Position numbers and translations under genes: made by a program. From Actinostola sp. cb2023 (Eukaryota > Cnidaria > Anthozoa > Actiniaria > Actinostolidae), in contig JAUJYZ010000967.1 of the NCBI GenBank assembly GCA_033675265.1, forward strand, positions 658,710 to 722,709: a stretch of 64,000 bases of DNA, written 5' to 3'. Positions 27,738 to 64,000 of the stretch are shown here, piece by piece. How positions within the stretch are numbered: position 1 is the first letter of the stretch; each line of letters begins with the position of its first letter. The notes beneath the pieces are model-generated. The model was not told the DNA's origin. It worked only from the letters and a program-made list of their open reading frames with translations, and ran no database searches.

Positions 27738-28985
27738 AGGCCGTTAACTAACGGCCTAAAATGTCACAGTATATACAACACTGATCACCGAAAGAGAAAT
27801 AAGCCGTTAACTAACGGCCTAAAATGTCACAGTATATAACATTGATCACGGTAACTAAAATGTCACAGTATATACAACACTGATCACCGAAAGAGAAATA
27901 AGCCGTTAACTAACGGCCTAAAATGTCACAGTATATGTACAACAATCATCACCGAACGAGAAATAAGCCGTTAACTAACGGCCTAAAATGTCACAGTATA
28001 TACAACACTGATCACCGAAAGAGAAATAAGCCGTTAACTAACGGCCTAAAATGTCACAGTATATGTACAACAATCATCACCGAACGAGAAATAAGCCGTT
28101 AACTAACGGCCTAAAATGTCACAGTATATAACATTGATCACCGAACGAGAAATAAGCCGTTAACTAACGGCCTAAAATGTCACAGTATATAACAATGATC
28201 ACCGAACGAGAAATAAGCCGTTAACTAACGGCCTAAAATGTCACAGTATATGTACAACAATCATCACCGAACGAGAAATAAGCCGTTAACTAACGGCCTA
28301 AAATGTCACAGTATATAACATTGATCCCGGTAAAGGTAAAATTAGGCCGTTAACTAACGGCCTAAAATGTCACAGTATATAACAATGATCACGGGTAAGG
28401 TAAAATTAGGCCGTTAACTAACGGCCTAAAATGTCACAGTATATAACACTGATCACGGTAAGGTAAAATAAGCCGTTAACTAACGGCCTAAAATGTCACA
28501 GTATATAACATTGATCACGGGTAAGGTAAAATTAGGCCGTTAACTAACGGCCTAAAATGTCACAGTATATAACACTGATCACCGAAAGAGAAATAAGCCG
28601 TTAACTAACGGCCTAAAATCTCACAGTATATAACATTGATCACGGTAAGGTAAAATTAGGCCGTTAACTAACGGCCTAAAATCTCACAGTATATAACATT
28701 GATCCCGGGTAAGGTAAAATTAAGCCGTTAACTAACGGCCTAAAATCTCACAGTATATAACATTGATCACGGTAAGGTAAAATTAGGCCGTTAACTAACG
28801 GCCTAAAATCTCACAGTATATAACATTGATCCCGGTAAGGTAAAATTAGGCCGTTAACTAACGGCCTAAAATCTCACAGTATATAACATTGATCACGGTA
28901 AGGTAAAATAAGCCGTTAACTAACGGCCTAAAATCTCACAGTATATGTACAACAATCATCACCGAACGAGAAATAAGCCGTTATC
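27738..28985 (+). repeat. Palindromic minisatellite, left array
   Basis: About 19 units of 55-66 bp, each with the perfect 18-bp palindrome GGCCGTTAACTAACGGCC (or AGCC at its left edge), then TAAAATGTCACAGTATATAA and one of two spacers: CATCACCGAACGAGAAATA or GATCACGGTAAGGTAAAATT. One unit near 27850 has lost the palindrome. The array ends in a truncated unit at 28980. Confidence 0.95.
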
Positions 28986-32029: not shown

Positions 32030-32940
32030 GTTACTGTACTGTGACATTTTAGGCCGTTAGTTAACGGCCTAATTTTACCTTACCTTATACTGTGAGATTT
32101 TAGGCCGTTAGTTAACGGCCTAATTTTACGTTACCGGGATCAAAGTTATATACTGTGACATTTTAGGCCGTTAGTTAACGGCCTAATTTTACGTTACCTT
32201 ATACTGTGACATTTTAGGCCGTTAGTTAACGGCCTAATTTTACGTTACCGGGATCAATGTTATATACTGTGAGATTTTAGGCCGTTAGTTAACGGCCTAA
32301 TTTTACGTTACCGGGATCAATGTTATATACTGTGACATTTTAGGCCGTTAGTTAACGGCCTAATTTTACGTTACCGGGATCAATGTTATATACTGTGACA
32401 TTTTAGGCCGTTAGTTAACGGCTTATTTCTCGTTCGGTGATCAGTGTTGTATATACTGTGACATTTTAGGCCGTTAGTTAACGGCTTATTTCTCTTTCGG
32501 TGATCAGTGTTGTATATACTGTGACATTTTAGGCCGTTAGTTAACGGCCTATTTCTCGTTCGGTGATCAGTGTTGTATCTACTGTGACATTTTAGGCCGT
32601 TAGTTAACGGCCTATTTCTCGTTCGGTGATCAGTGTTGTATCTACTGTGACATTTTAGGCCGTTAGTTAACGGCCTATTTCTCTTTCGGTGATCAGTGTT
32701 GTATCTACTGTGACATTTTAGGCCGTTAGTTAACGGCCTATTTCTCGTTCGGTGATCAGTGTTATATCTACTGTGACATTTTAGGCCGTTAGTTAACGGC
32801 CTATTTCTCGTTCGGTGATCAGTGCTCTATCTACTGTGACATTTTAGGCCGTTAGTTAACGGCCTATTTCTCGTTCGGTGAAAAATGTTATGTACTGTGA
32901 CATTTTAGGCCGTTAGTTAACGGCCTAAAATGTTGCAGTA
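32030..32940 (-). repeat. Palindromic minisatellite, right array (inverted copy)
   Basis: About 15 units of 52-66 bp carry the same palindrome as the left array (read here GGCCGTTAGTTAACGGCC) in reversed orientation. Two spacer types recur, ATTTTACGTTACCGGGATCA at the inner side and ATTTCTCGTTCGGTGATCAG at the outer side. The order of spacer types mirrors the left array. Confidence 0.95.
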
Positions 32941-35954: not shown

Positions 35955-36218
35955 GTGCGGACACACGGTGCAACATTGCGCGCAACATTGCTGGCAATTT
36001 TGTTGCAACGTGTGTCCACCTCTGCAACATGTTGCGCGCAATTGACTAGCGCGCGCTGCTAATGCGACGTAATTTGTTGCTCGTAATGTTGCAGAAGTAG
36101 GACTCGATTCTACTTTTGCAACATTGCGCGCAACATGTTGCAGAGGTGGACACACGCTGCAACATTACGTGTTGCGAGCAATGTTGCGCGCAATGTTGCA
36201 CCGTGTGTCCGGCCCTTA
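35955..36218. mobile_element. MITE with GGACACACGGTGCAAC ends
   Basis: Inverted ends GGACACACGGTGCAACATTG and its complement. The interior repeats GCAACATTGCGCGCAACA motifs in both orientations. No coding sequence. Confidence 0.75.
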
Positions 36219-36535
36219 AATGTCTCTAATATCGATCGTCTGTTGTCCATATTCTAAGGGACAATATACCAACGCCTTAAATCTCTCTAATATCGATCGT
36301 CTGTTGTCCATATTCTAAGGGACAATATACCAACGCCTTAAAATCTCTCTAATATCGATCGTCTGTTGTCCATATTCTAAGGGACAATATACCAACGCCT
36401 TAAATCTCTCTAATATCGATCGTCTGTTGTCCATATTCTAAGGGACAATATACCAACGCCTTAAATCTCTCTAATATCGATCGTCTGTTGTCCATATTCT
36501 AAGGGACAATATACCAACGCCTTAAATGTCTCTCT
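36219..36535. repeat. 61-bp minisatellite, five units
   Basis: Units contain CTCTAATATCGATCGTCTGT and AAGGGACAATATACCAACGC. Spacing is 61-62 bp and identity is near 100%. Confidence 0.95.
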
Positions 36536-36579
36536 ATAGCGCCCACCCTCGGCGACTATAGTTACAATTCACCTTACTG

Positions 36580-36990
36580 GAGAAGCCTATTCCTTATTTG
36601 GTAACCCTATTCCTTATTTGGTAACCCTATTCCTTACATGGTAACCATATTCCTTACTTGGTAACCAAATTCCTTATATGGTAACCCTATTCCTTATTTG
36701 GTAACCCTATTCCTTATTTGGTAACCCTATTCCTTATTTGGTAACCCTATTCCTTATTTGGTAACCCTATTCCTTATTTGGTAACCCTATTCCTTATTTG
36801 GTAACTCTATTCCTTATTTGGTAACCCTATTCCTTATATGGCAACCCTATTCCTTATTTGGTAACCCTATTCCTTATTTGGTAACCCTATTCCTTATATG
36901 GTAGCCCTATTCCTTATTTGGTAACTCTATTCCTTATTTGGTAACCCTATTCCTTATATGGCAACCCTATTCCTTATTTGGTAACGACAT
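36580..36990. repeat. 20-bp minisatellite, about 20 units
   Basis: Unit CCTATTCCTTATTTGGTAAC with scattered substitutions (ATATG, GCAAC, GTAGC). Confidence 0.95.
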
Positions 36991-37716: not shown

Positions 37717-40700
37717 CTACCATGTTTCCAGTGTTATGTGGTAATACTTGTATCTCTCAGCACTAAAACCATTAAAATTACTGGATGTTGCACTTGTGTA
37801 GGCGCCAAAATTGTCAAAGTACAACCAGTCACCAACAGACAACTACAAGAAATTAATATTGAGATTGTTGCTTTCAGAGCACGACAATTGTCGATTGTCA
37901 TGCATGAAGAAATGGTACTCATACATTAGCATGGCATCCGTCTCATGTACCCATAATGACCATCTACTGCACGTAACCCTGAAGAAACTACTCACTGTAT
38001 GTAGTAACTTACCTTTGGTAGCCGACTGTCCCGATTTACAAAGTCATTTCCATCGCAACTGTGGCCACAGATGCTTGATGGGTAATTGGCTTCTGATGAT
38101 TTGTTTATTGTTAGCGGTTTGAATTTGACATCGGGATTATAGAACACTTCCAAGAAAGAACCGTACACCCCGTCATCGATGTAATACATGAAACCCTGTG
38201 TAACAAAGAGAAACAACTTGAGATGGAGGAGCCCACACAACACACTGGTAATATCATCCATCTCAACTCACATTGTCAGGGTCATCCTCGTTACTACTCA
38301 CATCGTCAGGGTCATCCTCGTTACTACTCACATTGTCAGGGTCATCCTCGTTACTACTCACATCGTCAGGGTCATCCTCATTACTACTCACATTGTCAGG
38401 GTCATCCTCGTTACTACTCACATTGTCAGGGTCATCCTCGTTACTACTCACATTGTCAGGGTCATCCTCGTTACTACTCACATTGTCAGGGTCATCCTCG
38501 TTACTACTCACATCGTCAGGGTCATCCTCGTTACTACTCACATCGTCAGGGTCATCCTCGTTACTACTCACATTGTCAGGGTCATCCTCGTTACTACTCA
38601 CATCGTCAGGGTCATCCTCGTTACTACTCACATCGTCAGGGTCATCGTTGTTACTACTCACATTGTCAGGGTCATCGTTGTTACTACTCACATCGTCAGG
38701 GTCATCCTCGTTACTACTCACATCGTCAGGGTCATCGTTGTTACTACTCACATTGTCAGGGTCATCCTCGTTACTACTCACATTGTCAGGGTAATCCTCG
38801 TTACTACTCACATTGTCAGGGTCATCCTCGTTACTACTCACATCGTCAGGGTCATCCTCGTTACTACTCACATCGTCAGGGTCATCGTTGTTACTACTCA
38901 CATTGTCAGGGTCATCCTTGTTACTACTCACATTGTCAGGGTCATCCTCGTTACTACTCACATTGTCAGGGTCATCCTCGTTACTACTCACATGGTCAGG
39001 GTCATCCTCGTTACTACTCACATCGTCAGGGTCATCCTCGTTACTACTCACATCGTCAGGGTCATCCTCGTTACTGCTCACATCGTCAGGGTCATCCTCG
39101 TTACTACTCACATTGTCAGGGTCATCCTCGTTACTACTCACATTGTCAGGGTCATCCTCGTTACTACTTACATCGTCAGGGTCATCGTTGTTACTACTCA
39201 CATTGTCAGGGTCATCCTCGTTACTACTCACATCGTCAGGGTCATCCTCGTTACTACTCACATCGTCAGGGTCATCCTCGTTACTACTCACATTGTCAGG
39301 GTCATCCTCGTTACTACTCACATTGTCAGGGTCATCCTCGTTACTACTCACATCGTCAGGGTCATCGTTGTTACTACTCACATTGTCAGGGTCATCCTCG
39401 TTACTACTCACATTGTCAGGGTCATCCTCGTTACTACTCACATTGTCAGGGTCATCCTCGTTACTACTCACATTGTCAGGGTCATCCTTGTTACTACTCA
39501 CATTGTCAGGGTCATCCTCGTTACTACTCACATTGTCAGGGTCATCGTTGTTACTACTCACATTGTCAGGGTCAGCCTCGTTACTACTCACATTGTCAGG
39601 GTCATCCTCGTTACTACTCACATTGTCAGGGTCATCCTCGTTACTACTCACATCGTCAGGGTCATCCTCGTTACTACTCACATTGTCAGGGTCATCCTCG
39701 TTACTACTCACATTGTCAGGGTCATCCTCGTTACTACTCACATCGTCAGGGTCATCCTCGTTACTACTCACATCCTCAGGGTCATCCTCGTTACTACTCA
39801 CATTGTCAGGGTCATCCTCGTTACTACTCACATTGTCAGGGTCATCGTTGTTACTACTCACATTGTCAGGGTCATCCTCGTTACTACTCACATCCTCAGG
39901 GTCATCCTCGTTACTACTCACATTGTCAGGGTCATCCTCGTTACTACTCACATCCTCAGGGTCATCCTCGTTACTACTCACATTGTCAGGGTCATCCTCG
40001 TTACTACTCACATTGTCAGGGTCATCCTCGTTACTACTCACATTGTCAGGGTCATCCTCGTTACTACTCACATTGTCAGGGTCATCCTCGTTACTACTCA
40101 CATTGTCAGGGTCATCCTCGTAACTACTCACATCGTCAGGGTCATCCTCGTTACTACTCACATCGTCAGGATCATCCTCGTTACTACTCACATCGTCAGG
40201 GTCATCCTCGTTACTACTCACATTGTCAGGGTCATCCTCGTTACTACTCACATTGTCAGGGTCATCCTCGTTACTACTCACATTGTCAGGGTCATCCTCG
40301 TAACTACTCACATTGTCAGGGTCATCCTCGTAACTACTCATATTGTCAGGGTCATCCTTGTTACTACTCACATTGTCAGGGTCATCCTCGTTACTACTCA
40401 CATTGTCAGGGTCATCCTCGTAACTACTCACATTGTCAGGGTCATCCTCGTAACTACTCATATTGTCAGGGTCATCCTTGTTACTACTCACATTGTCAGG
40501 GTCATCCTCGTTACTACTCACATTGTCAGGGTCATCCTCGTTACTACTCACATTGTCAGGGTCATCCTCGTTACTACTCACATTGTCAGGGTCATCCTCG
40601 TTACTACTCACATTGTCAGGGTCATCCTCGTTACTACTCACATTGTCAGGGTCATCCTCGTTACTACTCACATTGTCAGAGTCATCGTTTGTTACTACTC

Positions 40701-43700
40701 ACATTGTCAGGGTCATCCTTGTTACTACTCACATTGTCAGGGTCATCCTCGTTACTACTCACATTGTCAGGGTCATCCTCGTTACTACTCACATTGTCAG
40801 GGTCATCCTCGTTACTACTCACATTGTCAGGGTCATCCTCGTTACTACTCACATTGTCAGGGTCATCGTTGTTACTACTCACATCGTCAGGGTCATCCTC
40901 GTTACTACTCACATCGTCAGGGTCATCCTCGTTACTACTCACATCGTCAGGGTCATCGTTGTTACTACTCACATTGTCAGGGTCATCCTCGTTACTACTC
41001 ACATTGTCAGGGTAATCCTCGTTACTACTCACATTGTCAGGGTCATCCTCGTTACTACTCACATCGTCAGGGTCATCCTCGTTACTACTCACATCGTCAG
41101 GGTCATCGTTGTTACTACTCACATTGTCAGGGTCATCCTTGTTACTACTCACATTGTCAGGGTCATCCTCGTTACTACTCACATTGTCAGGGTCATCCTC
41201 GTTACTACTCACATTGTCAGGGTCATCCTCGTTACTACTCACATCGTCAGGGTCATCCTCGTTACTACTCACATCGTCAGGGTCATCCTCGTTACTACTC
41301 ACATCGTCAGGGTCATCCTCGTTACTACTCACATTGTCAGGGTCATCCTCGTTACTACTCACATTGTCAGGGTCATCCTCGTTACTACTCACATCGTCAG
41401 GGTCATCGTTGTTACTACTCACATTGTCAGGGTCATCCTCGTTACTACTCACATTGTCAGGGTCATCCTCGTAACTACTCACATTGTCAGGGTCATCCTC
41501 GTTACTACTCACATCGTCAGGATCATCCTCGTTACTACTCACATCGTCAGGGTCATCCTCGTTACTATTCACATTGTCAGGGTCATCCTCGTTACTACTC
41601 ACATTGTCAGGGTCATCCTCGTTACTACTCACATTGTCAGGGTCATCCTCGTTACTACTCACATTGTCAGGGTCATCCTCGTAACTACTCACATTGTCAG
41701 GGTCATCCTCGTAACTACTCATATTGTCAGGGTCATCCTTGTTACTACTCACATTGTCAGGGTCATCCTCGTTACTACTCACATTGTCAGGGTCATCCTC
41801 GTAACTACTCACATTGTCAGGGTCATCCTCGTAACTACTCATATTGTCAGGGTCATCCTTGTTACTACTCACATTGTCAGGGTCATCCTCGTTACTACTC
41901 ACATTGTCAGGGTCATCCTCGTTACTACTCACATTGTCAGGGTCATCCTCGTTACTACTCACATTGTCAGGGTCATCCTCGTTACTACTCACATTGTCAG
42001 GGTCATCCTCGTTACTACTCACATTGTCAGGGTCATCCTCGTTACTACTCACATTGTCAGAGTCATCGTTGTTACTACTCACATTGTCAGGGTCATCCTC
42101 GTTACTACTCACATTGTCAGGGTCATCCTCGTTACTACTCACATTGTCAGGGTCATCCTCGTTACTACTCACATCGTCAGGGTCATCCTCGTTACTACTC
42201 ACATTGTCAGGGTTATCCTGGTTACTACTCACATCGTCAGGGTCATCCTCGTTACTACTCACATCGTCAGGGTCATCGTTGTTACTACTCACATTGTCAG
42301 GGTCATCCTCGTTACTACTCACATTGTCAGGGTCATCCTCGTTACTACTCACATTGTCAGGGTCATCCTCATTACTACTCACATTGTCAGGGTCATCCTC
42401 GTTACTACTCACATTGTCAGGGTCATCCTCGTTACTACTCACATTGTCAGGGTCATCGTTGTTACTACTCACATCGTCAGGGTCATCCTCGTTACTACTC
42501 ACATCGTCAGGGTCATCCTCGTTACTACTCACATTGTCAGGGTCATCCTCGTTACTACTCACATCGTCAGGGTCATCCTCGTTACTACTCACATCGTCAG
42601 GGTCATCCTCGTTACTACTCACATCGTCAGGGTCATTCTCGTTACTACTCACATTGTCAGGGTCATCCTCTGTAAATCTCATTGGAGGGTTTTCCACACC
42701 GTGAATTTGTTTCTTGGTTATTTCTTTCACTGCGATGACATTTGTCACTATCGTGAACGGTGAACATGCAAAATAGTTTCCTGGTTCAGCGATGATCTTG
42801 ACTCCAGTAGAGACAGGAAAGTGTTGCTCAAGACTGTGGTTGATCACGTGACACATCTACAAAATAACAACATGATTGGTCAACCTGTGGTGACGGTGGA
42901 AACGTTTGAATTCACACACCTTCTCGAAAAAAGCATTTTGCGATTGTTTTCCAGGGAACCCTCCACCAATGTCCAGAATACTGAAGGAGAACCCCAATTT
43001 CTCCTGTAAAAGAAAACTCATTACAGCTAGTTTATGTAAAGTCGGGGGCGGTTGCATTTGTCTATATGTAGCCGACTTACCGCTTGGTCAAATATGTGTC
43101 TGGAAGATTGAATAGATTTTACAAAGGCCATCTCATTAAAGCAGTAGCTACCGACATGGAAACTGAAACGAATTGTAGATGTCTTTGTTACTCTGTCAAG
43201 TATTTGTAGTGCTGAAACTCCAACAGTTTCACAACTCAATAACTGAAAAGTTCATTCTTGTCACATTTGCTAACGAGTACCTTACGCCAATAACATTCAG
43301 TCCCAGATCCTTGGCCACAGCAAGGATGTCGCTGCAATCTTCAACAGCAGCCCCGAATTTAAACCCATTCTAGAAGATAGAAAACATAAAATGACGCGTG
43401 CGTATAGGACATGATAACATTACGTCGTTTGTGTCGCGTGTTTTCAACTGAAGAAGTCGGTACTGTGGACAATAGAGGCGTTTTTGTACGAGTGGGAAAG
43501 TTACGGTACTGTGCTGCGTCGTATTGAAAGAGTGTGATTGGATGAGATGCATCTGCACTCTTTTTGATTGGTTCATAAAGGAAGCCACTTGAATGCCACG
43601 GTACTGTAAGTAATATACTTACTACGTCATACAAAGCTCCACCTTTAAAGGTAGGACGAAAGCGTATCAGCAACCTGCAATTATAAGATGTTCTTATAAG

Positions 43701-45769
43701 GCTTTGAGGAAATCTGGAGTCAAAGAAAACTTGAGGAAATGTAGGAAAAGTAAACAAAGCAGAGCTTTCATGTCAGACACTAAAGCAAGCAGGAAAATTA
43801 AAGAGCACTGTTTTTGTACATACTCAGCGTTGGGGTACAGTTCTTTGATCTTAAACAACTCTTCTTTGCTATCAAATGTCATCATAGAAACTCCTCGTTT
43901 GGCTGCAAACCTAAACAATAACCATAAAAATGTGTTCACAGGTATGACGCAGAGTATTTCATGGTATTGTAATATTCCACTATTACCTGATATAAGAAGG
44001 CTTTTTACAAGGATGTGCATAGATGATGTCGCTTGGTTTGGATCCAACACTAAGAGCTAATTCTATTTCTGACTGGCAAAACGTAAGCATAAAATGGCAA
44101 AATCAACGTCGGGCTTATACATAGTTGACCATGAGAAACTTGGTGCTATTTTAAACTTATTATTCTGAAGCACAAGGAGTCACATGCAGCATGGTCCACA
44201 CGCAACCTCTAGTTCTGTTATCCCTCAACCTCGTTGCCTACCGGTCAACAGACAACAGGTAACCCACTGAGACAGGAAATTATAACCATTCACTGATACA
44301 TACCTTACTGGCACAATCAAACCCAGTTCCCAACAGGTATAGTTGACGGACAAGTACTGGGTCTGGATTAACTTTGACAGCTGAAAGCGACAAAGTGATG
44401 TTATACTGACTTGATAAGCGTGCAACGTGTAAAGGTTCAGTGCTCGAGACCAAATGTTTAAAGTATTTTCTGGTGAGAAACGTTCTTAATGTATTAACAA
44501 AAATGTGATAATTTCAAGAAAAATTCTTACCAAAGAAAGAGCGAATTCTGGGAAGAAGCTCACACCACTAAAGATGAAAAATGTTCTTATTGTGGTACTA
44601 ATCAAAACATAGTAATTGATTGCAAACACTAAAACAGTGAAAGAGTACTAAATAGCACCAATGAAACAATGGAACCGTTTTAGTGTTTGCACTCTAATAG
44701 AGAATGGTTTTGAAACCCAGCAAACATCATTGTTCTACGTCGTATTTTTGTGATTGTTTGTCAACCTTCGGTGACACTGCAATGAAGCAAAGCATTTTTT
44801 GGTATCACGATGAAAAGTTCCTAGAAGTACCTGGAAGTATTACTGATAGTAGTGTAGTCATAATTAATTGTGTTGGTTCTAGTATTATCTTTCTGTATAT
44901 ATATGTTCTTGCTGTGGTACTATAACTAGAAGTAGTACCGGTAGTAGTCTAGTCATAATTGTGCTGGTTCTAGTAGTACCCTTCTGTATATAGTGATATG
45001 TTCTTGCTGTGGTACTATAACCAGAAGTAGTACTGGTAGTAGTCTAGTCATAATTGTGCTGGTTCTAGTAGTACCCTTCTGTATATAGTGATATGTTCTT
45101 GTTGTGCTACTATAAACATAGGTAGTACTGGTAGTAGTCTAGTCATAATTGTGCTGGTTCTAGTAGTACCCTTCTGTATATAGTGATATGTTCTTGTTGT
45201 GCTACTATAACCATAGGTAGTACTGGTAGTAGTCTAGTCATAATTGTGCTGGTTCTAGTAGTACCTTTCTGTATATAGTGATATGTTCTTGTTGTGGTAC
45301 TATAACCATAGGTAGTACTGCATGGTAGTAGTGAAGTCATAATTGTGTTGGTTCTAATATTACCTTTCTGTATATAGTGATATGTTCTTGTTGTGGTACT
45401 ATAACCATAAGTAGTACTGGTAGTAGTCTAGTCATAATTGTGTTGGTTCTAGTATTACCTTTCTGTATATAGTGATATGTTCTTGTTGTGGTACTATAAC
45501 GAGAAGTAGTACTGGTAGTAGTGTAGTCATAATTGTGTTGGTTCTAGTATTACCTTTCTGTATATAGTGATAGTTCTCTCCATATTCATCATATAAAATC
45601 CATCGTCCTTTTCCTTTGAAAATACAGACCATAACAGTTTCTAGCGACGATGACATTATTGGAAACACTTGACATGCATGATGTTCATTTACCTCTCTTT
45701 CAGTGTTTGTGATGACATAATCCATCAGGTTTTCAAATGGAACATTTTCTTTAGTGACAATAAGTTTTC
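37717..45769 (-). CDS. ODC1-like: Ornithine decarboxylase (PLP-dependent, fold III), 5' end beyond window
   Basis: ODC makes putrescine from ornithine, the first step of polyamine synthesis, as a cytosolic dimer. Twelve coding exons, all with compatible phases: 45769-45693, 44567-44531, 44380-44304, 44072-43987, 43910-43824, 43674-43623, 43369-43281, 43162-43081, 43003-42920, 42856-42653, 38195-38013 and 37842-37717 (stop TAG). Visible active-site elements: FFAVKVNPDP (PLP lysine), GTGFDCASKSE, IIYAHPCK, MMTFDSKEEL (antizyme-binding region), SFHVGS, LDIGGGFPG, AEPG, DDGVYGSF, SCDGND (catalytic Cys) and FGAYT. The Arg of EPGRY, which normally holds PLP phosphate, is Asn (EPGNYF). The C-terminus stops at YYHITLETW, so there is no vertebrate-type PEST tail. 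The FYV-DLG segment before WCELLPR was not found. The donor of exon 43369-43281 is weak (AAG|GTACTC), but it restores the expected GVSFHVGS. Confidence 0.9.
38264..42670 (-). repeat. 30-bp splice-donor minisatellite in ODC, 146 full units
   Basis: Counting 30-bp periods gives 80 units (38281-40680), one 31-bp unit (40681-40711) and 65 units (40712-42661), with partial units at both ends. On the ODC strand each unit reads GTGAGTAGTAACGAG followed by GATGACCCTGACAAT, so it carries the exon end and its 5' splice site (AAT or GAT, then GTGAGT). The partial unit nearest the exon is coding (TEDDPDN). All units upstream of 40690 are in the ODC frame and would encode VSSNEDDPDN. A 1-bp insertion near 40689 shifts the frame and creates a stop at 40682-40684. 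Variants: a few units have GTAAGT (39171), GTGAGC (39066) or GTGAAT, and four lose the GT (ATGAGT near 40340, 40460, 41720 and 41840). The acceptor is at 38196-38198 (TTTCTCTTTGTTACACAG). The long frames on the plus strand are by-products. Confidence 0.95.
42647..42652 (-). other. First 5' splice site of the donor array
   Basis: GACAAT|GTGAGT directly after the exon encoding ...MRFTEDDPDN, phase 0. Joining it to the acceptor at 38196-38198 gives EDDPDN-GFMYYIDDGVYGSF, which aligns without gap to the ODC family around FMYYVNDGVYGSF. Confidence 0.7.
44621..44690. repeat. Short inverted repeat in an ODC intron
   Basis: TGCAAACACTAAAAC and GTTTTAGTGTTTGCA flank about 40 bp. Small MITE. Confidence 0.7.
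44831..45592. repeat. 95-bp minisatellite in an ODC intron, about 8 units
   Basis: Period 95 bp (one unit 99, one 91). Units share GGTTCTAGTAGTACCCTTCT, TATATAGTGATATGTTCTTG and AGTACTGGTAGTAGTCTAGT. On the minus strand it runs directly out of the short dispersed element at 45598-45641. Confidence 0.92.
45598..45641 (-). repeat. Short dispersed element abutting a minisatellite (copy 2)
   Basis: Minus-strand AAACTGTTATG, GTCTGTATTTTC and AAAGGAAAAGGACGATGGAT, as at 10691-10735. The tandem array follows on the same side in both copies. Confidence 0.6.
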
Positions 45770-45778
45770 CTGAAAGAG
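45770..45778 (-). other. 3' splice site next to the acceptor array
   Basis: CTCTTTCAG precedes GAAAACTTATTGTCACTAAA. The exon then encodes KLIVTKENVPFENLMDYVIT and NTERE, fitting the N-terminal region of ODC before the FYV-DLG strand, and ends at GAG|GTAAAT (45693). The exon needs one base from the previous exon, which lies beyond the window. Confidence 0.6.
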
Positions 45779-48700
45779 TTTCAGACAGTGGGTCCTGCGT
45801 TTTCCTTGAAGAGTTTGAGAGAGTGGGTGGTGAGCAGTTTACTGAAAGAGCTTGAGATAGTGTGTGGGTCGTGAGGTTTCTTGTAAGAATTTGAGATAGT
45901 GGGTCGTCAGTTTCCCTGATAGAGTTTGAGATATAGTGGGTCGTGACTTTTCCTTGAAGAATTTGAGAGAGTGGGTCATGCGTTTTCCTGAAAGAGTTTG
46001 AGAGAGGGGGTCGTGAGTTTTCCTGTAAGAGTTTGAGATAGTGGGTCGTGAGTTTTCCTGTAAGAGTTTGAGATAGTGGGTCATGCGTTTTCCTGAAAGA
46101 GTTTGAGATAGTGGGTCATGCGTTTTCCTGAAAGAGTTTGAGATAGTGGGTCGTGAGTTTTCCTGTAAGAGTTTGAGAGAGTGGGTTGTGAGTTTTTCTG
46201 TAAGAGTTTGAGATAGTGGGTCGTGAGTTTTCCTGTAAGAGTTTGATATAGTGGGTCGTGAGTTTTCCTGAAAGAGTTTGAGAGAGGGGGTCGTGAGTTT
46301 TCCTGTAAGAGTTTGAGATAGTGGGTCGTGAGTTTTCCTGTAAGAGTTTGAGATAGTGGGTCGTGAGATTTCCTGTAAGAGTTTGAGATAGTGGGTCGTG
46401 AGTTTTCCTGTAAGAGTTTGAGATAGGGGGTCGTGAGTTTTCCTGTAAGAGTTTGAGATAGTGGGTCGTGAGTTTTCCTGTAAAAGTTTGAGATAGTGGG
46501 TCGTGAGTTTTCCTGAAAGAGTTTGAGATAGTGTGTCGTGAGTTTTCCTGTAAGAGTTTGAGATAGTGGGTCATTCGTTTTCCTGTAAGAGTTTGAGATA
46601 GTGGGTCGTGAGTTTTCCTGTAAGAGTTTGAGATAGTGGGTCGTGAGTTTTCCTGTAAGTGTTTGAGATAGTGGATCTTGAGTTTTCCTGTAAGAGTTTG
46701 AGATAGTGGGTCGTGAGTTTTCCTGTAAGAGTTTGAGATAGTGGGTCGTGAGTTTTCCTGTAAGAGTTTGAGATTGTGGGTCGTGAGTTTTCCTGTAAGA
46801 GTTTGAGATATTGGGTCATTCTTTTTCCTGTAAGAGTTTGAGATAGTGGGTCGTGAGTTTTCCTATAAGAGTTTGAGATAGTGGGTCGTGAGTTTTCCCA
46901 TAAGAGTTTGAGATAGTGGGTCGTGAGTTTTCCTGTAAGAGTTTGAGATAGTGGGTCGTGAGTTTTCCTGTAAGAGTTTGAGATAGTTGGTCGTGAGTTT
47001 TCCTGAAACAGCTTGAGAGAGTGGGTCGTGAGTTTTCCTGTAAGAGTTTGAGAGAGTGGGTCGTGAGTTTTCCTGTAAGAGTTTGAGATAGTGGGTCGTG
47101 AGTTTTCCTGTAAGTGTTTGAGATAGTGGGTCGTGAATTTTCCTGTAAGAGTTTGAGATAGTGGGTCGTGAGTTTTCCTGTTAGAGTTTGAGATAGTGGG
47201 TCGTGAGATTTCCGGAAAGATTTTGAGAGAGTGGGTCGTGAGTTTTCCTGTAAGAGTTTGAGAGAGTGGGTCGTGAGTTTTTCTGTAAGAGTTTGAGATA
47301 GTGTGTCGTGAGTTTTCCTGTAAGAGTTTGAGATAGTGGGTCATTCGTTTTCCTGAAAGAGTTTGAGATAGTGGATCGTGAGTTTTCCTGTAAGAGTTTG
47401 AGATAGTGGGTCGTGAGTTTTCCTGTAAGAGTTTGAGATAGTGGGTCATGCGTTTTCCTGAAAGAGTTTGAGATAGTGGGTGGTGAGTTTTCCTGTAAGA
47501 GTTTGAGATAGTGGGTCGTGAGTTTTCCTGTAAGAGTTTGAGATAGTGGGTCGTGAGTTTTCCTGTAAGTGTTTGAGATAGTGGGTCGTGAGTTTTCCTG
47601 TAAGAGTTTGAGATAGTGGGTCGTGAGTTTTCCTGTAAGAGTTTGAGATAGTGGGTCGTGAGTTTTCCTGTAAGTGTTTGAGACAGTGGGTCGTGAGTTT
47701 TCCTGTAAGAGTTTGAGATAGTGGGTCGTGAGTTTTCCTGTAAGAGTTTGAGATAGTGGGTCGTGAGTTTTCCTGAAAGATTTTGAGAGAGTGGATCGTG
47801 AGTTTTCCTGTAAGAGTTTGAGAGAGTGGGTCGTGAGTTTTCCTGTAAGAGTTTGAGATAGTGGGTCGTGAGTTTTCCTATAAGAGTTTGAGATAGTGGG
47901 TCGTCAGTTTTCCTGTAAGAGTTTGAGATAGTGGGTCGTGAGTTTTCCTGTAAGAGTTTGAGATAGTGGGTCGTGAGTTTTCCTGAAACAGCTTGAGAGA
48001 GTGCGTCGTGAGTTTTCCTGTAAGAGTTTGAGAGAGTGGGTCGTGAGTTTTCCTGTAAGAGTTTGAGATAGTGGGTCGTGAGTTTTCCTGTAAGTGTTTG
48101 AGATAGTGGGTCGTGAATTTTCCTGTAAGAATTTGAGATAGTGGGTCGTGAGTTTTCCTGTTAGAGTTTGAGATAGTGGGTCGTGAGATTTCCTGAAAGA
48201 TTTTGAGAGAGTGGGTCGTGAGTTTTCCTGTAAGAGTTTGAGAGAGTGGGCCGTGAGTTTTTCTGTAAGAGTTTGAGATAGTGGGTCGTGAGTTTTCCTG
48301 TAAGAGTTTGATATAGTGGGTCGTGAGTTTTCCTGAAAGAGTTTGAGAGAGGGCGTCGTGAGTTTTCCTGTAAGAGTTTGAGATAGTGGGTCGTGAGTTT
48401 TCCTGTAAGAGTTTGAGATAGTGGGTCGTGAGTTTTCCTGTAGGAGTTTGAGATAGTGGGTCGTGAGTTTTCCTGTAAGAGTTTGAGATAGGAGGTCGTG
48501 AGTTTTCCTGTAAGAGTTTGAGATAGTGGGTCGTGAGTTTTCCTGTAAGAGTTTGAGATAGTGGGTCGTGAGTTTTCCTGAAAGAGTTTGAGATAGTGTG
48601 TCGTGAGTTTTCCTGTAAGAGTTTGAGATAATGGGTCATTCGTTTTCGTGTAAGAGTTTGAGATAGTGGGTCGTGAGTTTTCCTGTAAGAGTTTGAGATA

Positions 48701-51700
48701 GTGGGTCGTGAGTTTTCCTGTAAGTGTTTGAGATAGTGGATCTTGAGTTTTCCTGTAAGAGTTTGAGATAGTGGGTCGTGAGTGAGTTTTCCTGTAAGAG
48801 TTTGAGATAGTGGGTCATTCGTTTTCCTGAAAGAGTTTGAGATACTGGATCGTGAGTATTCCTGTAAGAGTTTGAGATAGTGGGTCGTGAGTTTTCCTGT
48901 AAGAGTTTGAGATAGTGGGTCATGCGTTTTCCTGAAAGAGTTTGAGATAGTGGGTGGTGAGTTTTCCTGTAAGAGTTTGAGATAGTGGGTCGTGAGTTTT
49001 CCTGTAAGAGTTTGAGATAGTGGGTCGTGAGTTTTCCTGTAAGTGTTTGAGATAGTGAATCGTGAGTTTTCCTGTAAGAGTTTGAGATAGTGGGTCGTGA
49101 GTTTTCCTGTAAGAGTTTGAGATAGTGGGTCATGCGTTTTCCTGAAAGAGTTTGAGATAGTGGGTTATGAGTTTTCCTGTAAGAGTTTGAGATAGTGGGT
49201 CATGCGTTTACCTGAAAGAGTTTGAGATAGTGGGTCGTATGTTTTCCTGTAAGAGTTTGAGATAGTGGGTCATGCGTTTTCCTGAAAGAGTTTGAGATAG
49301 TGGGTCATGCGTTTTCCTGAAAGAGTTTGAGATAGTGGATCGTGAGTTTTCCTGTAAGAGTTTGAGATAGTGGGTCGTGAGTTTTCCTGAAAGAGTTTGA
49401 GATAGTGGGTCATGCGTTTTCCTGAAAGAGTTTGAGACAGTGGGTCGTGAGTTGTTTTCCTGTAAGAGTTTGAGATAGTGGGTCATTCGTTTTCCTGTAA
49501 GAGTTTGAGATAGTGGGTCGTGAGTTTTCCTGTAAGAGTTTGAGATAGTGGGTCGTGAGTTTTCCTGTAAGTGTTTGAGATAGTGGATCTTGAGTTTTCC
49601 TGTAAGAGTTTGAGATAGTGGGTCGTGAGTTTTCCTGTAAGAGTTTGAGATAGTGGGTCGTGAGTTTTCCTGTAAGAGTTTGAGATTGTGGGTCGTGAGT
49701 TTTCCTGTAAGAGTTTGAGATATTGGGTCATTCTTTTTCCTGTAAGAGTTTGAGATAGTGGGTCGTGAGTTTTCCTATAAGAGTTTGAGATAGTGGGTCG
49801 TGAGTTTTCCCATAAGAGTTTGAGATAGTGGGTCGTGAGTTTTCCTGTAAGAGTTTGAGATAGTGGGTCGTGAGTTTTCCTGTAAGAGTTTGAGATAGTT
49901 GGTCGTGAGTTTTCCTGAAACAGCTTGAGAGAGTGGGTCGTGAGTTTTCCTGTAAGAGTTTGAGAGAGTGGGTCGTGAGTTTTCCTGTAAGAGTTTGAGA
50001 TAGTGGGTCGTGAGTTTTCCTGTAAGTGTTTGAGATAGTGGGTCGTGAATTTTCCTGTAAGAGTTTGAGATAGTGGGTCGTGAGTTTTCCTGTTAGAGTT
50101 TGAGATAGTGGGTCGTGAGATTTCGATTTTGAAATTTTGAAAGAGTTTGAGAGTGGGTCGTGAGTTTTCCTGTAAGAGTTTGAGAGAGTGGGTCGTGAGT
50201 TTTTCTGTAAGAGTTTGAGATAGTGTGTCGTGAGTTTTCCTGTAAGAGTTTGAGATAGTGGGTCATTCGTTTTCCTGAAAGAGTTTGAGATAGTGGATCG
50301 TGAGTTTTCCTGTAAGAGTTTGAGATAGTGGGTCGTGAGTTTTCCTGTAAGAGTTTGAGATAGTGGGTCATGCGTTTTCCTGAAAGAGTTTGAGATAGTG
50401 GGTGGTGAGTTTTCCTGTAAGAGTTTGAGATAGTGGGTCGTGAGTTTTCCTGTAAGAGTTTGAGATAGTGGGTCGTGAGTTTTCCTGTAAGTGTTTGAGA
50501 TAGTGGGTCGTGAGTTTTCCTGTAAGAGTTTGAGATAGTGGGTCGTGAGTTTTCCTGTAAGAGTTTGAGATAGTGGGTCGTGAGTTTTCCTGTAAGTGTT
50601 TGAGACAGTGGGTCGTGAGTTTTCCTGTAAGAGTTTGAGATAGTGGGTCGTGAGTTTTCCTGTAAGAGTTTGAGATAGTGGGTCGTGAGTTTTCCTGAAA
50701 GATTTTGAGAGAGTGGATCGTGAGTTTTCCTGTAAGAGTTTGAGAGAGTGGGTCGTGAGTTTTCCTGTAAGAGTTTGAGATAGTGGGTCGTGAGTTTTCC
50801 TATAAGAGTTTGAGATAGTGGGTCGTCAGTTTTCCTGTAAGAGTTTGAGATAGTGGGTCGTGAGTTTTCCTGTAAGAGTTTGAGATAGTGGGTCGTGAGT
50901 TTTCCTGAAACAGTTTGAGAGAGTGCGTCGTGAGTTTTCCTGTAAGAGTTTGAGAGAGTGGGTCGTGAGTTTTCCTGTAAGAGTTTGAGATAGTGGGTCG
51001 TGAGTTTTCCTGTAAGTGTTTGAGATAGTGGGTCGTGAGTTTTCCTGTAAGAGTTTGAGATAGTGGGTCGTGAGTTTTCCTGTAAGAGTTTGAGATAGTG
51101 GGTCGTGAGTTTTCCTGAAAGAGTTTGAGATAGTGTGTCGTGAGTTTTCCTGTAAGAGTTTGAGATAATGGGTCATTCGTTTTCGTGTAAGAGTTTGAGA
51201 TAGTGGGTCGTGAGTTTTCCTGTAAGAGTTTGAGATAGTGGGTCGTGAGTTTTCCTGTAAGTGTTTGAGATAGTGGATCTTGAGTTTTCCTGTAAGAGTT
51301 TGAGATAGTGGGTCGTGAGTTTTCCTGTAAGAGTTTGAGATAGTGGGTCATTCGTTTTCCTGAAAGAGTTTGAGATACTGGATCGTGAGTATTCCTGTAA
51401 GAGTTTTTGAGATAGTGGGTCGTGAGTTTTCCTGTAAGAGTTTGAGATAGTGGGTCATGCGTTTTCCTGAAAGAGTTTGAGATAGTGGGTGGTGAGTTTT
51501 CCTGTAAGAGTTTGAGATAGTGGGTCGTGAGTTTTCCTGTAAGAGTTTGAGATAGTGGGTCGTGAGTTTTCCTGTAAGTGTTTTGAGATAGTGAATCGTG
51601 AGTTTTCCTGTAAGAGTTTGAGATAGTGGGTCGTGAGTTTTCCTGTAAGAGTTTGAGATAGTGGGTCATGCGTTTTCCTGAAAGAGTTTGAGATAGTGGG

Positions 51701-54700
51701 TTATGAGTTTTCCTGTAAGAGTTTGAGATAGTGGGTCATGCGTTTACCTGAAAGAGTTTGAGATAGTGGGTCGTATGTTTTCCTGTAAGAGTTTGAGATA
51801 GTGGGTCATGCGTTTTCCTGAAAGAGTTTGAGATAGTGGGTCATGCGTTTTCCTGAAAGAGTTTGAGATAGTGGATCGTGAGTTTTCCTGTAAGAGTTTG
51901 AGATAGTGGGTCGTGAGTTTTCCTGAAAGAGTTTGAGATAGTGGGTCATGCGTTTTCCTGAAAGAGTTTGAGACAGTGGGTCGTGAGTTGTTTTCCTGTA
52001 AGAGTTTGAGATAGTGGGTCATTCGTTTTCCTGTAAGAGTTTGAGATAGTGGGTCGTGAGTTTTCCTGTAAGAGTTTGAGATAGTGGGTCGTGAGTTTTC
52101 CTGTAAGTGTTTGAGATAGTGGATCTTGAGTTTTCCTGTAAGAGTTTGAGATAGTGGGTCGTGAGTTTTCCTGTAAGAGTTTGAGATAGTGGGTCGTGAG
52201 TTTTCCTGTAAGAGTTTGAGATTGTGGGTCGTGAGTTTTCCTGTAAGAGTTTGAGATATTGGGTCATTCTTTTTCCTGTAAGAGTTTGAGATAGTGGGTC
52301 GTGAGTTTTCCTATAAGAGTTTGAGATAGTGGGTCGTGAGTTTTCCCATAAGAGTTTGAGATAGTGGGTCGTGAGTTTTCCTGTAAGAGTTTGAGATAGT
52401 GGGTCGTGAGTTTTCCTGTAAGAGTTTGAGATAGTGTTGGTCGTGAGTTTTCCTGAAAGAGTTTGAGAGAGTGGGTCGTGAGTTTTCCTGTAAGAGTTTG
52501 AGAGAGTGGGTCGTGAGTTTTCCTGTAAGAGTTTGAGATAGTGGGTCGTGAGTTTTCCTGTAAGAGTTTGAGATAGTGGGTCGTGAATTTTCCTGTAAGA
52601 GTTTGAGATAGTGGGTCGTGGTCGTGAGTTTTCCTGTTCCTGTAAGAGTTTGAGATAGTGGGTCGTGAGATTTCCGGAAAGATTTTGAGAGAGTGGGTCG
52701 TGAGTTTTCCTGTAAGAGTTTGAGAGAGTGGGTCGTGAGTTTTTCTGTAAGAGTTTGAGATAGTGTGTCGTGAGTTTTCCTGTAAGAGTTTGAGATAGTG
52801 GGTCATTCGTTTTCCTGAAAGAGTTTGAGATAGTGGATCGTGAGTTTTCCTGTAAGAGTTTGAGATAGTGGGTCGTGAGTTTTCCTGTAAGAGTTTGAGA
52901 TAGTGGGTCATGCGTTTTCCTGAAAGAGTTTGAGATAGTGGGTGGTGAGTTTTCCTGTAAGAGTTTGAGATAGTGGGTCGTGAGTTTTCCTGTAAGAGTT
53001 TGAGATAGTGGGTCGTGAGTTTTCCTGTAAGAGTTTGAGATAGTGGGTCGTGAGTTTTCCTGTAAGAGTTTGAGATAGTGGGTCGTGAGTTTTCCTGTAA
53101 GAGTTTGAGATAGTGGGTCGTGAGTTTTCCTGTAAGAGTTTGAGATAGTGGGTCGTGAGTTTTCCTGTAAGAGTTTGAGATAGTGGGTCGTGAGTTTTCC
53201 TGTAAGAGTTTGAGATAGTGGGTCGTGAGTTTTCCTGTAAGAGTTTGAGATAGTGGGTCGTGAGTTTTCCTGAAAGATTTTGAGAGAGTGGATCGTGAGT
53301 TTTCCTGTAAGAGTTTGAGAGAGTGGGTCGTGAGTTTTCCTGTAAGAGTTTGAGATAGTGGGTCGTGAGTTTTCCTATAAGAGTTTGAGATAGTGGGTCG
53401 TCAGTTTTCCTGTAAGAGTTTGAGATAGTGGGTCGTGAGTTTTCCTGTAAGAGTTTGAGATAGTGGGTCGTGAGTTTTCCTGAAACAGCTTGAGAGAGTG
53501 CGTCGTGAGTTTTCCTGTAAGAGTTTGAGAGAGTGGGTCGTGAGTTTTCCTGTAAGAGTTTGAGATAGTGGGTCGTGAGTTTTCCTGTAAGTGTTTGAGA
53601 TAGTGGGTCGTGAATTTTCCTGTAAGAATTTGAGATAGTGGGTCGTGAGTTTTCCTGTTAGAGTTTGAGATAGTGGGTCGTGAGTTTTCCTGAAAGATTT
53701 TGAGAGAGTGGGTCGTGAGTTTTCCTGTAAGAGTTTGAGAGAGTGGGCCGTGAGTTTTTCTGTAAGAGTTTGAGATAGTGGGTCGTGAGTTTTCCTGTAA
53801 GAGTTTGATATAGTGGGTCGTGAGTTTTCCTGAAAGAGTTTGAGAGAGGGCGTCGTGAGTTTTCCTGTAAGAGTTTGAGATAGTGGGTCGTGAGTTTTCC
53901 TGTAAGAGTTTGAGATAGTGGGTCGTGAGTTTTCCTGTAGGAGTTTGAGATAGTGGGTCGTGAGTTTTCCTGTAAGAGTTTGAGATAGGAGGTCGTGAGT
54001 TTTCCTGTAAGAGTTTGAGATAGTGGGTCGTGAGTTTTCCTGTAAGAGTTTGAGATAGTGGGTCGTGAGTTTTCCTGTAAGAGTTTGAGATAGTGGGTCG
54101 TGAGTTTTCCTGTAAGAGTTTGAGATAGTGGGTCGTGAGTTTTCCTGTAAGAGTTTGAGATAGTGGGTCGTGAGTTTTCCTGTAAGAGTTTGAGATAGTG
54201 GGTCGTGAGTTTTCCTGTAAGTGTTTGAGACAGTGGGGTGAGTTTTCCTGTAAGAGTTTGAGATAGTGGGTCGTGAGTTTTCCTGTAAGAGTTTGAGATA
54301 GTGGGTCGTGAGTTTTCCTGAAAGATTTTTTGAGAGAGTGGATCGTGAGTTTTCCTGTAAGAGTTTGAGAGAGTGGGTCGTGAGTTTTCCTGTAAGAGTT
54401 TGAGATAGTGGGTCGTGAGTTTTCCTATAAGAGTTTGAGATAGTGGGTCGTCAGTTTTCCTGTAAGAGTTTGAGATAGTGGGTCGTGAGTTTTCCTGTAA
54501 GAGTTTGAGATAGTGGGTCGTGAGTTTTCCTGAAACAGCTTGAGAGAGTGCGTCGTGAGTTTTCCTGTAAGAGTTTGAGAGAGTGGGTCGTGAGTTTTCC
54601 TGTAAGAGTTTGAGATAGTGGGTCGTGAGTTTTCCTGTAAGTGTTTGAGATAGTGGGTCGTGAATTTTCCTGTAAGAATTTGAGATAGTGGGTCGTGAGT

Positions 54701-57700
54701 TTTCCTGTTAGAGTTTGAGATAGTGGGTCGTGAGATTTCCTGAAAGATTTTGAGAGAGTGGGTCGTGAGTTTTCCTGTAAGAGTTTGAGAGAGTGGGCCG
54801 TGAGTTTTTCTGTAAGAGTTTGAGATAGTGGGTCGTGAGTTTTCCTGTAAGAGTTTGATATAGTGGGTCGTGAGTTTTCCTGAAAGAGTTTGAGAGAGGG
54901 CGTCGTGAGTTTTCCTGTAAGAGTTTGAGATAGTGGGTCGTGAGTTTTCCTGTAAGAGTTTGAGATAGTGGGTCGTGAGTTTTCCTGTAGGAGTTTGAGA
55001 TAGTGGGTCGTGAGTTTTCCTGTAAGAGTTTGAGATAGGAGGTCGTGAGTTTTCCTGTAAGAGTTTGAGATAGTGGGTCGTGAGTTTTCCTGTAAGAGTT
55101 TGAGATAGTGGGTCGTGAGTTTTCCTGAAAGAGTTTGAGATAGTGGGTCGTGAGTTTTCCTGTAAGAGTTTGAGATAATGGGTCATTCGTTTTCGTGTAA
55201 GAGTTTGAGATAGTGGGTCGTGAGTTTTCCTGTAAGAGTTTGAGATAGTGGGTCGTGAGTTTTCCTGTAAGTGTTTGAGATAGTGGATCTTGAGTTTTCC
55301 TGTAAGAGTTTGAGATAGTGGGTCGTGAGTTTTCCTGTAAGAGTTTGAGATAGTGGGTCATTCGTTTTCCTGAAAGAGTTTGAGATACTGGATCGTGAGT
55401 ATTCCTGTAAGAGTTTGAGATAGTGGGTCGTGAGTTTTCCTGTAAGAGTTTGAGATAGTGGGTCATGCGTTTTCCTGAAAGAGTTTGAGATAGTGGGTGG
55501 TGAGTTTTCCTGTAAGAGTTTGAGATAGTGGGTCGTGAGTTTTCCTGTAAGAGTTTGAGATAGTGGGTCGTGAGTTTTCCTGTAAGTGTTTGAGATAGTG
55601 AATCGTGAGTTTTCCTGTAAGAGTTTGAGATAGTGGGTCGTGAGTTTTCCTGTAAGAGTTTGAGATAGTGGGTCATGCGTTTTCCTGAAAGAGTTTGAGA
55701 TAGTGGGTTATGAGTTTTCCTGTAAGAGTTTGAGATAGTGGGTCATGCGTTTTACCTGAAAGAGTTTGAGATAGTGGGTCGTGAGTTTTCCTGTAAGAGT
55801 TTGAGATAGTGGGTCATGCGTTTTCCTGAAAGAGTTTGAGATAGTGGGTTATGAGTTTTCCTGTAAGAGTTTGAGATAGTGGGTCATGCGTTTTACCTGA
55901 AAGAGTTTGAGATAGTGGGTCGTAGTTTTCCTGTAAGAGTTTGAGATAGTGGGTCATGCGTTTTCCTGTAAGAGTTTGAGATAGTGGGTCGTGAGTTTTC
56001 CTGTAAGAGTTTGAGATAGTGGGTCATGCGTTTTCCTGAAAGAGTTTGAGATAGTGGGTTATGAGTTTTCCTGTAAGAGTTTGAGATAGTGGGTCATGCG
56101 TTTTCCTGAAAGAGTTTGAGATAGTGGGTCGTATGTTTTCCTGTAAGAGTTTGAGATAGTGGGTCGTGAGTTTTCCTGTAAGAGTTTGAGATAGTGGGTC
56201 ATGCGTTTTCCTGAAAGAGTTTGAGATAGTGGGTTATGAGTTTTCCTGTAAGAGTTTGAGATAGTGGGTCATGCGTTTACCTGAAAGAGTTTGAGATAGT
56301 GGGTCGTATGTTTTCCTGTAAGAGTTTGAGATAGTGGGTCATGCGTTTTCCTGAAAGAGTTTGAGATAGTGGGTCATGCGTTTTCCTGAAAGAGTTTGAG
56401 ATAGTGGATCGTGAGTTTTCCTGTAAGAGTTTGAGATAGTGGGTCGTGAGTTTTCCTGAAAGAGTTTGAGATAGTGGGTCATGCGTTTTCCTGAAAGAGT
56501 TTGAGACAGTGGGTCGTGAGTTGTTTTCCTGTAAGAGTTTGAGATAGTGGGTCATTCGTTTTCCTGTAAGAGTTTGAGATAGTGGGTCGTGAGTTTTCCT
56601 GTAAGAGTTTGAGATAGTGGGTCGTGAGTTTTCCTGTAAGAGTTTGAGATAGTGGATCTTGAGTTTTCCTGTAAGAGTTTGAGATAGTGGGTCGTGAGTT
56701 TTCCTGTAAGAGTTTGAGATAGTGGGTCGTGAGTTTTCCTGTAAGAGTTTGAGATTGTGGGTCGTGAGTTTTCCTGTAAGAGTTTGAGATATTGGGTCAT
56801 TCTTTTTCCTGTAAGAGTTTGAGATAGTGGGTCGTGAGTTTTCCTATAAGAGTTTGAGATAGTGGGTCGTGAGTTTTCCCATAAGAGTTTGAGATAGTGG
56901 GTCGTGAGTTTTCCTGTAAGAGTTTGAGATAGTGGGTCGTGAGTTTTCCTGTAAGAGTTTGAGATAGTGGGTCGTGAGTTTTCCTGAAACAGCTTGAGAG
57001 AGTGGGTCGTGAGTTTTCCTGTAAGAGTTTGAGAGAGTGGGTCGTGAGTTTTCCTGTAAGAGTTTGAGATAGTGGGTCGTGAGTTTTCCTGTAAGAGTTT
57101 GAGATAGTGGGTCGTGAATTTTCCTGTAAGAGTTTGAGATAGTGGGTCGTGAGTTTTTTCCTGTTAGAGTTTGAGATAGTGGGTCGTGAGTTTTCCTGAA
57201 AGATTTTGAGAGAGTGGGTCGTGAGTTTTCCTGTAAGAGTTTGAGAGAGTGGGTCGTGAGTTTTTCTGTAAGAGTTTGAGATAGTGGGTCGTGAGTTTTC
57301 CTGTAAGAGTTTGAGATAGTGGGTCATTCGTTTTCCTGAAAGAGTTTGAGATATGTGGATCGTGAGTTTTCCTGTAAGAGTTTGAGATAGTGGGTCGTGA
57401 GTTTTCCTGTAAGAGTTTGAGATAGTGGGTCATGCGTTTTCCTGAAAGAGTTTGAGATAGTGGGTGGTGAGTTTTCCTGTAAGAGTTTGAGATAGTGGGT
57501 CGTGAGTTTTCCTGTAAGAGTTTGAGATAGTGGGTCGTGAGTTTTCCTGTAAGAGTTTGAGATAGTGGGTCGTGAGTTTTCCTGTAAGAGTTTGAGATAG
57601 TGGGTCGTGAGTTTTCCTGTAAGAGTTTGAGATAGTGGGTCGTGAGTTTTCCTGTAAGTGTTTGAGACAGTGGGTCGTGAGTTTTCCTGTAAGAGTTTGA

Positions 57701-63700: not shown

Positions 63701-64000
63701 GAGATAGTGTGTCGTGAGTTTTCCTGTAAGAGTTTGAGAGAGTGGGTCGTGAGTTTTCCTGTAAGAGTTTGAGATAGTGGGTCATGCGTTTTCCTGAAAG
63801 AGTTTGAGATAGTGGGTCGTGAGTTTTCCTGTAAGAGTTTGAGATAGTGGGTCATGCGTTTACCTGAAATAGTTTGAGATAGTGGGTCGTATGTTTTCCT
63901 GTAAGAGTTTGAGATAGTGGGTCATGCGTTTTCCTGAAAGAGTTTGAGATAGTGGGTCATGCGTTTTCCTGAAAGAGTTTGAGATAGTGGATCGTGAGTT
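45770..64000 (-). repeat. 35-bp splice-acceptor minisatellite, over 18 kb, continuing past the window
   Basis: About 520 units of 35 bp. On the ODC strand each contains CTATCTCAAACTCTTACAG or CTCTTTCAG followed by GAAAACTCAC (or GAAAACGCAT). The most upstream ODC exon found starts at exactly this junction: AACTCTTTCAG|GAAAACTTATTG at 45769/45770. The array is thus a multiplied copy of the acceptor plus the first exon bases. The unit is not a multiple of 3, and the consensus has no stop on this strand, giving open frames that cycle through THYLKLLQENSRP, TISNSYRKTHDP and LSQTLTGKL. Two unit flavours (CTGTAAGAG and CTGAAAGAG on the plus strand) alternate. Higher-order copies recur, for example the block at 49208-49731 is repeated at 51744-52267 and 56277-56800. 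A third flavour with GAGTTTTACTGAAGGAG appears near 60200, 61850 and 63370. Confidence 0.95.

Follow-up and report, generated by a model that had tools for sequence, protein, structure and literature searches.

What a long run of near-identical 5′ splice donors is doing at the end of a coding exon, and how it came to be there, are the questions raised by a 64,000-nucleotide stretch of contig C1386 (the window; C1386:658710–722709) from Actinostola sp. cb2023, a deep-sea vent anemone according to the available text of its genome paper (PMC10803348). The host is a minus-strand ODC-like gene whose 13 exons, when joined, give 413 stop-free codons. Of the coding exons recognised in the window, exon a (45693–45769) comes first and is followed by exons b (45554–45613), c (44567–44531), d (44380–44304), e (44072–43987), f (43910–43824), g (43674–43623), h (43369–43281), i (43162–43081), j (43003–42920) and k (42653–42856), all on the minus strand. 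Exon k terminates at the first donor of the run, AAT/GTGAGT (slashes mark exon–intron boundaries), exon l (38013–38195) begins behind the acceptor ttacacag/GGTTTC, and exon m (37717–37842) includes the stop codon. The open 413-codon splice agrees with the original prediction of a phase-0 junction between an exon end at 42653 and an acceptor before 38195.

The window protein contains both ODC Pfam domains, the PLP-binding PF02784 (E = 1.4e-70) and the sheet domain PF00278 (E = 2.7e-19), and it matches human ODC with E = 1.7e-99. At two active-site positions, human EPGRYY is replaced by EPGNYF and human LYDHAH by FYNPDV, and the proteins P0001–P0005 carry N or T at the first position and N at the second. 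The changed residues are R277 and D332 in human ODC numbering. As these active-site residues are not matched, the gene was named ODC-like instead of ODC; the two positions are encoded in exons k and l, and this ODC-like clade may have an altered substrate or have lost activity. Among the 120 matches listed, none was identical to the window protein (P0002 stood at 87% in the local alignment and 97% in the multiple alignment), so the window's own gene appears to be unannotated.

The minisatellite behind exon k occupies 38264–42670 (minus strand) and was parsed by script into 146 full 30-bp units, of 21 distinct types, and a 26-nt terminal piece; TRF called a 30-bp period at 38266–42670 with 146.8 copies and 95% matches. 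The unit, GAGGATGACCCTGACAAT/GTGAGTAGTAAC, consists of 18 nt of exon end and 12 nt of intron start, and every unit straddles the exon-k/intron boundary. As donor hexamer, 140 of the 147 units have GTGAGT and four ATGAGT, with GTAAGT, GTGAGC and GTGAAT occurring once each, and 142 of 147 units hold a usable donor (pattern NAT/GT[GA]AG[TC]). Both the figure of about 146 tandem donors and the near-universal GTGAGT that had been claimed were thus recovered. The 67th unit (40660–40690, minus strand) is 31 bp long because of one extra A within a homopolymer, which destroys the frame for donors from there onward; the unit 46 units upstream, at 42041–42070, is identical apart from missing this A. When each of the 142 donors was joined to exon l in silico, 63 products were stop-free and 79 contained a stop, and this, with the 31-bp 67th unit, shows that the frame is indeed kept for the first 66 units, as predicted.

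Predicted pairing with the 5′ end of U1 was −5.2 kcal/mol for 139 of the 147 donors, including the first, so that position alone distinguishes the first donor from later ones. Ten of the other 11 donors of the gene pair better with U1 (−5.3 to −10.3) and one pairs worse (−5.1). Splicing from the first donor would remove 4,457 nt and from the terminal donor 76 nt, and the introns of the gene, leaving aside the array-bearing introns b and k, measure 63–253 nt. Recursive splicing within the array was considered and looks unlikely, as the unit has neither AG/GT nor a pyrimidine tract.

Seven ODC-like genes were found in the assembly, namely C1386 (window), C1538a, C1538b, C773, C767, C718a and C718b; C1315 carries a further, more distant ODC. 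Array length at exon k is unstable across the seven copies, with one donor in five of them, two units in C1538a and 147 in the window. The exon-k end GACCCTGACAAT/GTGAGT is common to all six other paralogues, in keeping with the claim that the first unit marks the true exon end. Directly behind exon k, five of the six continue from GTGAGT into TGAGATGG, which in C767, one of the five, reads TAAGATGG; in the window, TGAGATGG comes next to the terminal GTGAGT (38266–38271, minus strand). By this paralogue comparison, the last donor (38271) is the ancestral intron start, with the array occupying the space between the old exon end and the old intron start. The corresponding intron measures 71–82 nt in four of the five single-donor paralogues and 373 nt in C773.

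The 30-bp repeat resolves into 24 nt of the old boundary and a 6-nt filler, AGTAAC, which is present in C1538a and the window and absent from the single-donor genes. A single founding duplication, shared through descent or conversion, is therefore the simplest reading. The array would have started as a short tandem duplication over the exon-k/intron boundary, in which the 24 nt and the filler gave two donors, and may then have grown to 147 units by unequal exchange or replication slippage, plus block duplications. Along the array, unit types follow an irregular order. A shared run of at least 12 units occurs at a single lag, 46 units, and is 16 units long, a pattern as in block duplication. 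The paralogue series of 1, 2 and 147 units is observed; the order and mechanism of unit copying are inferred.

Downstream of the gene, the window and C1538 are collinear over seven blocks totalling 11,663 aligned bp at 98.9% identity (blocks of at least 400 bp and at least 95% identity), with large insertions between them. Over exons c–k the window and C1538b are 98.4% identical, and over the stretch between the terminal donor and exon m 94.5%. For C1538a against C1538b the same two intervals give 95.4% and 99.6%, which likely reflects a recent gene-conversion tract on the C1538 haplotype in the second interval. As the identities of the flank and of exons c–k are close to the heterozygosity of 0.9% given in the available text of the genome paper (PMC10803348), the window and single-donor C1538b probably represent the two haplotypes of one locus. 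A recent segmental duplication would be the alternative to two haplotypes, of which the haplotype reading is the likely one.

The 30-bp array is one of three boundary arrays in the window gene, the others being a 95-bp donor array of 8 units and a 35-bp acceptor array of 519. The 95-bp array (44835–45577, minus strand) places 7.8 copies of 24 nt of exon and 71 nt of intron across the exon-b donor, with GGTA at seven of its eight donor sites and GATA at one. The 35-bp array (45763–64000, minus strand) places 519.1 copies (TRF) of 28 nt of intron and 7 nt of exon across the exon-a acceptor, and 461 acceptor-like [CT]AG/GAAA sites lie inside it upstream of exon a. It extends to the end of the contig (C1386, 722,709 bases), so its copy number is at least 519. 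The 35-bp array is the acceptor counterpart of the 30-bp donor array, and longer.

Apart from a tetranucleotide array within an intron of C767, a TRF survey of the seven genes for arrays of at least 60 bp gave four minisatellite families, all four lying across an exon–intron boundary. The 35-bp exon-a acceptor family has 519 copies in the window, 36.2 and a separate 8.2 in C1538a, and 24.1 in C1538b; the exon-b donor family (89–98 bp) has 7.8 in the window, 6.8 in C1538b, 13.6 in C1538a, 2.8 in C773 and 2.6 in C718b; a 96-bp exon-e donor family occurs in C773 only (18 copies, C773:54578–56286); and the 30-bp exon-k donor family has 147 copies in the window and 2.3 in C1538a. The distant ODC on C1315 showed no TRF array inside its exon span. 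Since the 35-, 95- and 96-bp arrays also differ in copy number between paralogues, the family as a whole reads, from sequence comparison, as general instability and not as a device at a single site. When seeds of the four unit lengths were simulated, the probability that all would strike a boundary by chance was 0.029. A special mechanism targeting repeats to splice sites is not compelling at a chance level of about 0.03, the gene being compact and the chance of boundary overlap correspondingly high. As a separate observation, the bases ahead of exon a in C1538a, just before C1538:129258, are AA, not AG (tctttcaa/GAAAAC); the gene's own exon-a acceptor looks lost, and acceptors of the 35-bp array just upstream might substitute for it.

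The view that no described system has this layout was not borne out. Minisatellites over exon–intron boundaries, termed 'mirages', have been described for the Adh3, globin and TnC genes of amphioxus, with similar repeats in PGBD5, and in the accessible parts of these reports they share the layout found here (PMC3087553, PMC3902484). In the amphioxus cases (Adh3, BflGb6, BflGb9, TnC), as in Actinostola, a tandem unit spans the boundary (there of either a 5′ or a 3′ splice site), splice signals survive in many copies (here 142 of 147), and copy number differs, there between haplotypes, with 6 and 3 for BflGb6, and here between gene copies, of which C1538b and the window are probably allelic. Somatic instability has also been reported for the Adh3 mirage. 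The differences are that the Actinostola array lies in another phylum, in a cnidarian, that its gene carries 147 and at least 519 copies, three arrays and a phase-0 30-bp unit, and that regular splicing was tested in amphioxus by RT-PCR, according to the same accessible parts, and is a prediction for Actinostola. With exon and intron sequence in the unit, kept splice signals and length instability, the array can be classed as a mirage, the exon-k junction of its unit being placed by protein homology and six paralogues.

Boundary tandem repeats of about 30 bp with recent expansion in young paralogues, where the exon–intron border may shift, are likewise described in the available text on human segmentally duplicated genes; those repeats differ in averaging about 4 copies and in having known transcripts (PMC2812944). 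A search of open-licence literature for boundary-spanning minisatellites in sea anemones or other cnidarians found none. Tandem alternative 5′ splice sites reportedly comprise few donors, and the intronic VNTR of ABCA7 is said not to be built of donors. What these two share with the present array, as far as the accessible text goes, is a link between splicing and multiplicity, of donors in the former (PMC2423196) and of repeats in the latter (PMC5954066). New here are the cnidarian case, the extreme copy number, the three boundary arrays in one gene and the paralogue series of 1, 2 and 147 donors. Boundary minisatellites are thereby carried from lancelets to a cnidarian, and the paralogues, as a graded series for the growth of intron borders, offer a natural experiment on donor choice, in which the exon context stays the same and the near-identical donors number 1, 2 or 147. 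The acceptor side adds 24 versus at least 519 35-bp units, probably as alleles within one animal. The set bears on how such arrays persist in coding genes.

For the peptide, the sequence differences between units look neutral, and no clear constraint on the donor is seen. Of 18 substitution kinds, 14 are nonsynonymous and 4 synonymous, with about 4 synonymous kinds expected by hand arithmetic from the 11 transitions and 7 transversions. Variation occurs at 4 of the 6 donor positions and at 11 of the other 24 (Fisher p = 0.65). Substituted cells number 7 of 876 in the donor and 110 of 3,504 in the rest, 70 of the 110 sitting at positions 1 and 16, and the lower count in the donor leaves room for a weak donor constraint. 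Only 1 of the 90 possible substitutions in the unit creates a stop, so a frame open over 66 units requires no selection and is uninformative in this respect; selection for the open frame is supported neither by this count nor by the mix of synonymous and nonsynonymous changes.

We therefore favour, as probably correct, a passive, expansion-prone minisatellite of the mirage type with no visible selected function, spliced mostly from the first donor with some leakage. Most transcripts would join donor 42653 to 38195, so that the whole array leaves as intron and the protein is unchanged, while some would leak to later donors. Regular use of the first donor is predicted by analogy with the amphioxus RT-PCR results. 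A point against it is that the short introns of this gene could favour the 76-nt intron formed by the terminal donor. First-donor splicing with leakage is placed ahead of an isoform ladder, and the ladder ahead of a null allele.

In the ladder, many donors would be used, as noise or in a tuned manner, adding up to about 65 copies of VSSNEDDPDN to an acidic loop before the GFMYY strand. The equal U1 pairing of 139 donors and the 63 in-frame, stop-free products speak for it, as do human boundary repeats, for which 66% of intron modifications also have repeat-keeping transcripts in the accessible part of that study (PMC2812944). In P0004, the deposited model of C1538a, the second donor is used and one VSSNEDDPDN is retained at residues 317–326, and the AlphaFold model has coil at 317–325 with mean pLDDT of 50 for residues 311–320, 80 for residues 321–330 and 73 overall; on this model, insertions there could be tolerated. 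P0004 derives, though, from an annotation by homology and de novo prediction, and the term RNA-seq occurs nowhere in the available text of the genome paper (PMC10803348). A repeat-rich product was sought by querying proteins with exon k followed by 65 units; this search, which reaches only proteins of similar length, matched just P0001–P0004, P0004 with its single unit. Moreover, 79 of the 142 donors lead to a stop, the variation within the array is neutral in its substitution mix and without clear constraint at donor positions, and the 35- and 95-bp units of the other two arrays do not keep the frame; the 96-bp unit of C773 is divisible by 3, yet has stops in all three frames. On balance, a ladder is unlikely, if the best placed of the alternatives.

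Should the terminal donor (38271) win by intron definition, a 4.6-kb exon would retain the array, and the frame break would make the window allele null or weak. The resulting 76-nt intron resembles that of most single-donor paralogues, and, between identical donors in vitro, the intron-proximal one is often preferred. The window coding sequence is nevertheless open, with dN/dS below 1 for the first-donor splice (0.32–0.52 against the five paralogues other than C767, though the 0.52 is against its closest copy), and amphioxus mirages splice regularly as far as the accessible text goes (PMC3087553). A null allele is accordingly a poor prospect.

We give still less credence to an assembler having created or inflated the copy number. 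The genome was assembled from PacBio reads with DBG2OLC and polished, per the available text (PMC10803348), the 35-bp array stops at a contig end and the frame-breaking base lies within a homopolymer. Against this, 4.4 kb fits inside the 20-kb insert size stated in the same text (PMC10803348), and unit types follow an irregular order, with a long shared run at a single lag. A two-unit version with the AGTAAC filler also exists in C1538a. Least probable of all is a length-tunable splicing element, in which donor number and choice set the count of acidic VSSNEDDPDN insertions (each with an S-x-x-E casein-kinase-2-like site) in the ODC-like loop, or the amount of U1 and transcript trapped by the intron, and haplotypes with 1, 2 or 147 donors would differ in protein length or output.

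Other repeats lie elsewhere in the window. Two 63-bp arrays (27855–28983 and 32086–32927), about 3 kb apart, have a common sequence in opposite orientation, and their units contain the imperfect palindrome GCCGTTAGTTAACGGC. Immediately 3′ of the ODC-like gene, adjoining 61-bp and 20-bp arrays occupy 36214–36985, and related repeats are also found 3′ of its kin on C1538 and C773.
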